Notes under the pieces: generated by a model
What the model was told of the DNA's origin: nothing
The model's input: only the letters and a program-made list of their open reading frames with translations
Database searches by the model: none
Position numbers and translations under genes: made by a program
Shown here: positions 5,567 to 12,000 of the stretch, piece by piece
How positions within the stretch are numbered: the stretch's first letter is position 1
How the letters are laid out: the number at the start of each line of letters is the position of its first letter
Origin: Sphingomonadaceae bacterium
GTDB taxonomy: Bacteria; Pseudomonadota; Alphaproteobacteria; Sphingomonadales; Sphingomonadaceae
Length of the DNA: 33,202 nucleotides
Assembly (NCBI GenBank): GCA_013001755.1
Contig: JABDLY010000052.1
Coordinates: forward strand, 1-33,202
Direction of reading: 5' to 3'

Positions 5567-5750
5567 GTCATCCTGAACTTCTTTGAGGATGCAATTTTTG
5601 GGGACAGTTGGCATTCACCGATGTCGTTATTGCGAGGAGCCGAAGGCGACGCGGCAATCCAGAGCCGCGAGCGCCGACGCGCGCGGCTCTGGATTGCTTC
5701 GCTTCGCTCGCAATGACGGATGGGCTCCAAAAAACAAGTTCAGCATGACG
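5567..5750. repeat. Composite nested palindromic repeats in the glpD/rnr divergent intergenic region
   Basis: Outer arms GTCATCCTGAACTT (5567-5580) and AAGTTCAGCATGAC (around 5736-5749). Inner imperfect palindrome 5623-5717, gtcgttattgcgaggag...gcaatccagagc / gctctggattgcttcgcttcgctcgcaatgac. Confidence 0.85.
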
Positions 5751-5779
5751 GCAACCCTCAACCCACGTATAGCTTCCCA

Positions 5780-8140
5780 ATGTCCTCACCTCTCCCCACC
5801 CAACAGCAAATCCTCGATTTTATCGCTAGCTCCGACCAACCGGCAGGGAAGCGCGAGATTGCGCGTGCTTTCGGCATCAAGGGACAGGACAAGATCGCGC
5901 TCAAGGCGTTGATGCGCGATATGGCGGACAAGGGATTGCTCGAAACCGGACCCGGCAAGAGCGTCCACAAGGGCGGCGGTTTGCCCAAGGTTACGGTGCT
6001 GCGCGTTGCGGACGTCGACGATGACGGCCAGATTTTCGCAACGCCCGAACGCTGGGACAGCGACGCGCCTGCGCCGCGGCTGCGGGTGAAGGAACGCGGC
6101 AAGCGCAGGCCGCTCGGTATCGGGCAACGCATCCTTGCGCGGACCGAGGAAGCAGGGAAGGGCTGGATCGCCCATCCGATGAAGATATTGCCCGCGGCGA
6201 GCGACGAGCTGATCGGCGTGGTCCACGAAGAAGGCGGCAAGCTCTGGCTCAAAGGGCTCGAAAAAAGCAGCCGGCGCGATCTTCCCGTGACGGATGCCAA
6301 CCGCGCGAGTGCAGGCGATCTCGTGCAGGCCGAGCGCAGCGGCGGCGGAGCGCGCGCAGGCGCGCGCGTCACCAGAATTCTCGGCGATCCGTTTCAGCCG
6401 AAAAGCTTCTCGCTGATCGCAATCCATAAGCACGAAATCCCGCATGTCTTTTCCGGGGAATTGCTCGAAGAGGCCGGGCGCGTCGCCAAGCTCGATCTCG
6501 GCGAGCGCGAGGACCTGACGTACCTGCCCATCGTCGCGATCGACCCCGCCGATGCACGCGATCATGACGATGCGATCTGGGCCGAGCCGGATGGCCGGGG
6601 CGGGTTTCGCGCGATCGTCGCGATTGCCGATGTCAGCTATTATGTCCGTCCGGGATCGCAGCTCGACCGCGAAGCGCGGCGGCGCGGCAACAGCGTCTAT
6701 TTTCCCGACCAGGTCGTGCCGATGCTGCCCGAAATACTTTCGGCCGAAATCTGTTCGCTCAAGGCGGGCAAAGACCGTGCGGCGATGGCCTGCCATCTCG
6801 AAATCGACGCGCAGGGCAAGCTCGAACGCTGGCGCTTTTCGCGCGCGCGCGTCCGGCTCGCAGCCAATATTGCCTATGAAGATGCGCAGGCGGCGATCGA
6901 CGGTACCTCTCCCCTCCCGCTCCCGGGAGGGGCCGGGGGTGGGGCCGGAACGAGCATAAGCGAGCGTGAAAGTGGTTCGGGCTCACCCACCCCTAACCCC
7001 TCCCGCAAGCGGGAGGGGGACTCGGTAGAGCTTGCCTCTTCACCTTGTGCAATGCCTGAGCTGGAGCGGGCCGATCTTGTCGAACAGACGCTCAAACCCC
7101 TTTGGGCCTGCTGGAAATTGCTCGCCAGGGCGCGTGCCGCGCGCGGGCCGCTCGATCTCGACCTTCCCGAGCGCCGGATCGAACTCGACGAAACCGGGCG
7201 TATCGAATCGGTCGCGCCGCGCGACCGGCTCGATGCGCATAGGCTTGTCGAGGATTTCATGATCGCCGCCAATGTCGCGGCCGCCAAGGCGCTGGAGGTC
7301 AAGGCTGCCGCCGTCATGTACCGCGTCCACGAGCCGCCGAGCCGCGAAAAACTCGTCGCGCTCAAGGAATATCTCGCCAGCCTCGATATGCCTTTTGCGA
7401 TGGGGCAGGTGATTACGCCTGCAACCTTCAACCGCGTGATCGAGCGCGTGCCCGACGAGAACATATTGCCGCAGGTCATGGAGCAGATTCTGCGCAGCCA
7501 GACGCAAGCCTATTACACACCCAAAAATGCCGGCCATTTCGGCCTCGCGCTTGGCAGCTATGCGCATTTCACCTCTCCGATCCGCCGCTATGCCGATCTG
7601 CTCGTCCATCGCTCGCTGGTCGGCGCGTACAAGCTTGGCCCCGACACCGGCGATACGGGGCTGACCGCCAAGGAAGCCGAAACGATGGAGGCGACCGGCG
7701 ACAAGATTTCGAAACTCGAACGCCGCGCGATGGAGGCCGAGCGCGAAACCAACGATCGCTATATCGCCGCCTATCTGGCCGAGCATGTCGGCGAGATCGT
7801 CAAGACGCGGATCACCGGCGTCCAGTCTTTCGGTTTTTTCGCCACCGTCGAGGAGTTTGGCGGCGACGGCTTGTTGCTCGCGCGCGATCTCGGCGCCGAA
7901 TATTTCCGCTACGACGAGACGCTCCACGCGCTCGTCGGCGAACAGACCCGCACGCGCTATGCGCTGGGCGATCGGCTCGAGCTCAGGCTGATCGACGCGA
8001 ATCCGGTAAGCGGCGGGCTGCGTTTCGAGCTCCCCGAAGGCAAGGGCGGTGGCGGTTCCTCGCGCTCGAAACGCTCAGACCGTCGGGATAAGGGCAAAGG
8101 CAAGCGAAAGGATCGCGGAAAAAAGCGCAGGCGGCGTTAA
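5780..8140 (+). CDS. rnr: Ribonuclease R (RNB-family 3'-5' exoribonuclease), carrying an in-frame palindromic-repeat insertion
   Basis: RNB active-site motif DPADARDHDDAIWAEPD, HFTSPIRRYADLLVHR, C-terminal S1 domain ITGVQSFGFFATVEEFGGDGLL and basic tail. Probable start MSSPLPTQQQILDFI at 5780. Confidence 0.95.
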   Translation: MSSPLPTQQQILDFIASSDQPAGKREIARAFGIKGQDKIALKALMRDMADKGLLETGPGKSVHKGGGLPKVTVLRVADVDDDGQIFATPERWDSDAPAPRLRVKERGKRRPLGIGQRILARTEEAGKGWIAHPMKILPAASDELIGVVHEEGGKLWLKGLEKSSRRDLPVTDANRASAGDLVQAERSGGGARAGARVTRILGDPFQPKSFSLIAIHKHEIPHVFSGELLEEAGRVAKLDLGEREDLTYLPIVAIDPADARDHDDAIWAEPDGRGGFRAIVAIADVSYYVRPGSQLDREARRRGNSVYFPDQVVPMLPEILSAEICSLKAGKDRAAMACHLEIDAQGKLERWRFSRARVRLAANIAYEDAQAAIDGTSPLPLPGGAGGGAGTSISERESGSGSPTPNPSRKREGDSVELASSPCAMPELERADLVEQTLKPLWACWKLLARARAARGPLDLDLPERRIELDETGRIESVAPRDRLDAHRLVEDFMIAANVAAAKALEVKAAAVMYRVHEPPSREKLVALKEYLASLDMPFAMGQVITPATFNRVIERVPDENILPQVMEQILRSQTQAYYTPKNAGHFGLALGSYAHFTSPIRRYADLLVHRSLVGAYKLGPDTGDTGLTAKEAETMEATGDKISKLERRAMEAERETNDRYIAAYLAEHVGEIVKTRITGVQSFGFFATVEEFGGDGLLLARDLGAEYFRYDETLHALVGEQTRTRYALGDRLELRLIDANPVSGGLRFELPEGKGGGGSSRSKRSDRRDKGKGKRKDRGKKRRRR
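6906..7022. repeat. Palindromic repeat element inside the rnr reading frame
   Basis: Two hairpins CCCCTCCCGCTCCCGGGAGGGG (6911-6932) and CCCCTCCCGCAAGCGGGAGGGG (6997-7018); the whole half-arms are also mutually inverted (about 28 of 33 positions). Stays in frame and encodes TSPLPLPGGAGGGAGTSISERESGSGSPTPNPSRKREGDS. Confidence 0.85.
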
Positions 8141-11908: not shown

Positions 11909-12000
11909 CGTCATTGCGAGCGCAGCGAAGCAATCCAGAGCGGCAAACGGCATCGCTTGTGGCTCTGGATTGCTTCGTCGCTTCGCTCCTCGCAATGACG
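11909..12000. repeat. Palindromic intergenic repeat, same family as 5623-5717
   Basis: cgtcattgcgagcgcagcgaagcaatccagagc ... gctctggattgcttcgtcgcttcgctcctcgcaatgacg; imperfect inverted arms. Confidence 0.88.

Follow-up and report, generated by a model that had tools for sequence, protein, structure and literature searches.

The window analysed here is a stretch of 33,202 nucleotides, contig C121 in the genome of a Sphingomonadaceae bacterium (hereafter G000; 2.49 Mb in 244 contigs, 90.5% complete). It carries rnr, the gene for RNase R, in an open reading frame that spans 5720-8140 and has a likely start at 5780. This is the only rnr match in its genome, and Pfam recognises both CSD2 and, with E=2e-92, an RNB domain at residues 243-614. 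The nearest named RNase R belongs to an uncultured Parasphingopyxis (73% identity), and the host genome is itself Parasphingopyxis-like. The RNB domain is split by an insert of about 113 bp. The features of the locus are as follows.

5780-8140, forward strand: rnr, encoding RNase R, with CSD2 and an RNB domain split by the insert (Pfam; E. coli RNase R, 5xgu, aligned on both sides of the insert).
6902-7027, forward strand: codons of the inserted peptide with the host junction, GTSPLPLPGG...SRKREGDSV (from translation; predicted to be disordered).
6908-7020, forward strand: two-hairpin palindromic element, an in-frame insert (TCT-CCCC...GGGG-GA; ends from an alignment of about 83 copies, with further support from genome copies and from absence in relatives).
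6911-6943, no strand assigned: left long arm, 33 nt, an inverted repeat with 6986-7018 (85% complementary).
6911-6932, no strand assigned: left hairpin, CCCCTCCCGCTCCCGGGAGGGG (from the sequence).
6944-6985, no strand assigned: variable spacer between the arms; a DUF559 gene occupies the equivalent place in full-length copies elsewhere (comparison of copies).
6986-7018, no strand assigned: right long arm, an inverted repeat with 6911-6943.
6997-7018, no strand assigned: right hairpin, CCCCTCCCGCAAGCGGGAGGGG (from the sequence).
7022-7075, forward strand: remainder of the host-derived loop, SVELASSPCAMPELERAD, common to three same-genus relatives.

The element consists of two half-elements in inverted orientation; in each, a C/G-rich hairpin comes first, then TTA or CCG, then GGGGTGGG. 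Both hairpins are present exactly as an earlier, sequence-only reading of this DNA had given them, and translation confirms its statement that the rnr frame stays open throughout the insert (GTSPLPLPGGAGGGAGTSISERESGSGSPTPNPSRKREGDS). The computed RNA fold of the region is very stable, at -85 kcal/mol (z = -5.7; none of 200 shuffles was as stable). The same reading had set the extent at 6906-7022. The element is real, but its ends are better placed at about 6908 and 7020, because some 83 aligned copies share conserved ends, CT/CCCC...GGGG/GA, with no conservation outside them. In many of these 83 copies the loop of the left hairpin is complementary to that of the right one, e.g. GCTGGC with GCCAGC, which suggests that the palindrome is retained or copied as a whole. 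A search of Rfam gave no match for the element.

The borders say little about how such elements move. No target-site duplication of fixed length was detectable in 96 copies, where the best match reached 34% against 25% expected, and no insertion motif was found at the borders of the approximately 83 aligned copies. The mechanism of movement is therefore unproved, and old or imprecise copies could mask a duplication in this test. A repair-based or a single-strand route would be compatible with the lack of duplications, which proves neither. A 5-bp repeat, CGGTA, surrounds 6906-7022 and was considered as a target duplication. It is probably due to chance, as removal of 122 bp would break the rnr frame, and no fixed duplication is seen in the 96 copies.

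Where does the insert fall in the protein? Alignment with E. coli RNase R (5xgu) runs as far as 'WHILQG' and restarts 10 residues on; the insert loop lies at this point, so its earlier assignment to an RNB loop was correct. A protein model had been suggested as a check, and in the AlphaFold prediction the RNB core is well predicted and residues 384-425, which lie between the helices at 366-374 and 430-455, have a pLDDT below 50. The insert is thus predicted to form a disordered loop linking two RNB helices. The three nearest relatives, all of the same genus, keep the host loop xVELASSPCxM (the SSPC loop) on the right side. Hence the net gain in rnr is only about 33-35 codons; an insertion had rightly been inferred, but its estimated size of about 39 codons was too large. 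The element is absent from RNase R in all 29 of the parsed relatives (same genus, family and order), as the comparison of relatives had been expected to reveal. The loop is hypervariable and differs in length among relatives. Conservation of the peptide in RNase R of distant Sphingomonadales, which would have refuted the sequence-only reading, was not seen.

Sphingomonas jeddahensis G39 has the same element in the same RNase R loop (APLPLAGGVGGGPVDIDRTLADKPSPSPSREREGD). In other sphingomonads (loci L129, L107, L097 and L121) this loop encodes debris or remnants of different palindromic repeats, and in L129 it contains a nearly perfect long inverted repeat that starts with CGTCACCCC. From these two kinds of occupant we infer that the RNase R loop is a recurrent acceptor. 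The rnr insertion itself is known from one fragmented assembly, G000.

A lack of other genomic copies would likewise have counted against the insert being a repeat, and copies are present both in its own genome and in the genus. Three nearly whole copies in G000 lie directly after a stop codon (C134:829-942) or between genes (C62:1627-1718 and C105:4328-4427), and degenerate copies or variants also occur, e.g. on C205; the copy counts for this genome come from searches only. Across the genus, hairpin counts per genome range from 0 (G001) to 50 (G008), and the sample holds 36 two-hairpin elements. An unbiased survey of hairpins in the genus recovered full in-frame copies in rnr, glyS, ileS (two species, same site), carA and truB. 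In this set the core length is a multiple of three in six of six intragenic copies, while the remaining 30 two-hairpin copies split 10/10/10 between the three length classes. Palindromes of this type had been described as normally intergenic; intergenic copies do exist, but the family is often intragenic.

Profile searches of 200 family genomes added valS, uvrA, mfd, ppdK, ligA, dnaE2, gcvPB and a transporter, and the in-frame host genes in other Sphingomonadales are carA, valS, ileS, glyS, uvrA, mfd, ligA, dnaE2, truB and ppdK. Representatives were identified with NCBIfam/Pfam and the rest by shared flanking motifs. The family-wide gene counts are lower bounds that depend on the profile, and the excess of lengths divisible by three in this larger set is biased by the profile used. 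In carA the element has entered one and the same linker in five genera, a single valS site is used in four genera and a single ileS site in three species. At the shared loop of carA, and likewise at that of ileS, the reading frame in which the element is used differs between genera, which points to separate insertion events. A single preferred reading frame, suggested by the six of six genus copies, was dropped once a frame-B profile search returned carA, ileS and ligA in the other open frame. The valS gene of G136 (L341/L360) and the dnaE2 gene of G197 (L348) each contain two palindromic insertions in frame. As far as sequence comparison can establish it, we have shown that the insert belongs to a dispersed family with many in-frame gene insertions and conservation of frame.

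Other explanations of the insert must be set against these copies. Ordinary growth of a low-complexity loop, combined with a chance palindrome, would suit the variable loop length in relatives. It is already refuted by the genome copies: the match to dispersed copies, including intergenic ones, is at the nucleotide level, and the inverted-arm architecture is common to about 83 of them, which leaves this account practically untenable. It could also be that a repeat was stitched into rnr during assembly, a concern in a genome of 244 contigs without read data. We think this very improbable, however, as the sequences on either side are parts of a single rnr gene, the reading frame is preserved and the loop is a tolerant site; the same configuration is present in a named isolate, S. 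jeddahensis, and other genes are likewise affected in the single-contig genomes G136 and G190. A further possibility is that the insert is under selection, its RNA hairpin or peptide regulating rnr expression or altering RNase R, itself a degrader of structured RNA. The stability of the fold is in keeping with this, as are the reuse of the loop in S. jeddahensis and by other palindromic repeats in other sphingomonads, and the recurrence of DNA-repair and tRNA genes as hosts, both here and in the report of Di Nocera et al. (2013; PMC3733652). Yet nearly all RNase R genes lack the element, the loop is hypervariable, and the variation of the peptide, with the use of two frames at one and the same site in carA and in ileS, speaks against a specific function of the peptide. 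The preference for these genes is general, since the host genes that Di Nocera et al. report for other palindromes are nearly the same. Selection is in our view improbable, and we infer that the inserted peptide is probably near-neutral.

The reading of the insert as a mobile palindrome raises the question of what moves it. In two genus genomes (G004, contig C15; G008, contig C37) a DUF559 gene lies between two half-elements of the same hairpin type, with arms that match the rnr element. A plasmid of Qipengyuania citrea also carries a DUF559 gene flanked by the rnr hairpin type and by matching arms. These three cases meet the arm-match criterion for the kind of element that we propose, a DUF559-linked palindromic element. 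Among 63 DUF559 loci from 60 Sphingomonadales genomes, 50 have inverted hairpin flanks, compared with 6 of 240 ordinary control genes, at a threshold above the 99th percentile of 1058 random positions. An independent definition of hairpins places them on both sides of 40 of the 63 loci and on one side of 17, and on both sides of none of 959 random windows. Every one of the 63 loci is supported by at least one of the two flank measures.

The association extends well beyond the order. Sampling across the class Alphaproteobacteria gave 21 DUF559 loci, 17 of them flanked, and flanked genes occur in plasmid records of Sphingomonas parapaucimobilis, Azospirillum lipoferum and Sinorhizobium meliloti; in Azospirillum brasilense and Sinorhizobium K101 the hairpins are found on one side only. 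Outside the Proteobacteria, plasmid records likewise showed flanked DUF559 genes, with lineage-specific GC-rich hairpins, in two Deinococcus (L428 and L431) and in the cyanobacteria Pseudanabaena and Picosynechococcus (L429 and L430). The Picosynechococcus flanks were judged by eye and their alignment score is modest.

The type of hairpin follows the DUF559 tree, with 15 changes compared with 32.3 when shuffled (0 of 200 shuffles as low), and the three-part hairpin type forms almost one clade. In this genus, common descent accounts for some of the DUF559 loci, several of which are vertically inherited at one site; others are unique. The DUF559 gene on contig C11 of G004 is a close relative of the copies at a site shared by G000, G005 and G008 and sits at a different locus, which suggests movement. 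At another site, the same in both genomes, G000 (L257, C128) and G008 (L275, C3) carry DUF559 genes from different subclades, as if one had been replaced or reinserted. At L013 (G000, C32) the TAA stop codon of the DUF559 gene is supplied by the half-element. No DUF559 copy with exactly the rnr hairpin type was found in the 90.5% complete G000 assembly, and G002, which has 20 hairpins, gave no DUF559 hits. Judged from genomic data alone, the linkage of DUF559 to the half-elements and its co-variation with hairpin type are nevertheless well demonstrated. A literature search that mostly lacked subscription journals brought up no paper that connects DUF559 with palindromes, and the existence of one is not excluded.

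What kind of protein is DUF559? Sixty aligned domains conserve E16, D45, E56, D58, H62 and R72. The predicted structure (pLDDT 89.8) matches NGO0050, the homing endonuclease I-Bth0305I (Foldseek E 3.5e-5 to 3r3p) and Vsr (1cw0). With this Vsr-like predicted fold and conserved residues of catalytic type, the domain meets the EDxHD/Vsr test, in the absence of activity data. Caulobacter cells that lack a cytosine methyltransferase depend on a DUF559 protein, VsrA, for a DNA-damage response (PMC12907096).

We propose that full-length copies carry a DUF559 gene between their half-elements, that the encoded Vsr/EDxHD-type endonuclease would cut target DNA, and that repair would then copy the element in. 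Short copies such as the one in rnr would have moved in trans. Here, a palindrome of two half-elements would have entered a surface loop of the RNB domain, to be transcribed and translated (translation is inferred) as a disordered Gly/Pro/Ser/Arg linker; selection would spare those copies that lie in flexible loops and leave the frame intact. We consider it likely that 6908-7020 is such a non-autonomous copy of a mobile palindromic element, inserted in the RNB surface loop of RNase R and belonging to a DUF559-mobilised family. On the narrower point that DUF559 mobilises the family our confidence is evenly balanced, as it is inferred from linkage, co-variation and fold, and no transposition has been shown.

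It may also be that the palindrome is mobile but DUF559 merely travels with it, or serves as a structure-specific repair nuclease for which hairpins are tolerable or required, while another enzyme, e.g. a Y1 (RAYT) transposase, moves the family. The accepted model for palindromes is the RAYT-REP pair, duplications are absent as they are with Y1 enzymes, and Caulobacter VsrA has been proposed to be a mismatch-repair endonuclease (PMC12907096). However, Y1_Tnp genes are missing from G000 and number only two in ten genus genomes, both flanked by unrelated sequence or repeats, whereas the DUF559 linkage is near-universal and tracks the hairpin type. This alternative is unlikely, if far from negligible. 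RAYT as the mobiliser of the rnr family was rejected: neither of the two genus genes has the rnr-type hairpin at its flanks, which makes RAYT an unlikely source. A separate RAYT-like unit was observed at L135 (G006, C142), where a Y1 transposase gene lies between long inverted repeats containing CGTATTTCGGTGACAGTGCACTTAATTC.

Several known systems resemble the DUF559-linked family in part. Rickettsia palindromic elements (RPEs) are palindromes of about 100-150 bp found in frame in unrelated conserved genes, with the peptide at tolerant sites (Ogata 2000, 2002, reviewed in PMC10969869 and PMC2229807). The rnr element satisfies the size and fold criterion (about 113 bp, 33-nt arms and the stable fold given above) and the multi-gene criterion (rnr, carA, valS, ileS, glyS, uvrA, mfd, ligA, dnaE2, truB and ppdK), and truB is a host in both systems. 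It differs from RPEs in its alphaproteobacterial order, its GC-rich hairpin, its many intergenic copies and its link to DUF559. That it works like an RPE is well supported as a statement of kind only, without sequence comparison with RPE families. The Rickettsia-like interpretation of the sequence-only reading, a dispersed palindrome turned coding at a length-tolerant RNB loop, holds.

GTAG and CGTC REPs are found inside uvrA, dnaE2, DNA ligase, tRNA synthetase and truB genes, and no transposase is recorded for CGTC REPs (PMC3733652). They share with our family a nearly identical list of host genes and hairpin units in inverted pairs, which in our genus sample make up the 36 two-hairpin elements; they differ from it in that ours has long arms bearing GGGGTGGG and is linked to DUF559. 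No GTAG or CGTC tag was found at the hairpin base in the approximately 83 aligned copies, where the flanking bases are CT and GA, so the rnr family is neither a GTAG nor a CGTC REP. The REP/REPIN-RAYT systems (PMC3116915, PMC2817692) likewise combine non-autonomous palindrome pairs with a related single-gene nuclease that has the same flanking hairpins, and nuclease and hairpin types co-vary in both. The nuclease here is a Vsr/EDxHD-fold DUF559 rather than a Y1 HUH transposase, and no Y1 transposase gene with rnr-type hairpin flanks was found (none at all in G000, two in the genus without the hairpin). DUF559 resembles I-Bth0305I and Vsr in its predicted fold and its conserved acidic, His and Arg residues; its gene lies between palindromic half-elements, not in an intron. 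Enterobacterial RU-1/2/3 (PMC2759123) and other coding MITEs are also short mobile repeats fused in frame to genes, but the rnr family has no detected target-site duplication, another sequence and a different nuclease partner. The fixed-length duplication that defines classical DDE-type MITEs is not met in the 96 copies.

Coding palindromes as such were already known; what is new is the presence of DUF559 genes inside paired half-elements. With our results, the protein-coding palindromes of Rickettsia and those of the GTAG/CGTC REPs are joined by a separate family, found in free-living Sphingomonadales, which has used the same loops of the same enzymes recurrently. The open question of how palindromes without a partner transposase are mobilised also receives an answer that can be tested. 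Should DUF559 prove to be the mobiliser, a role would be assigned to a very common 'endonuclease domain-containing protein', and repeat families would become explainable and possibly usable as insertion tools. More tentatively, and with slightly less than even confidence, we suggest that DUF559 genes with inverted hairpin half-elements make up a class of autonomous mobile element in bacteria that has not been recognised before and is driven by a nuclease of the homing type (Vsr/EDxHD). Its internally deleted copies would be the GC-rich palindromes seen across Alphaproteobacteria, Deinococcus and Cyanobacteria, which have repeatedly become coding, as in RNase R.

The window also contains palindromic dimers of another type, which resembles the CGTC-type REPs. 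One lies just upstream of rnr at 5627-5720 (GTTATTGCGAGG...CGCAATGACGG), and a second of the same type is found at 11909-12000 (CGTCATTGCGAG...CTCGCAATGACG).
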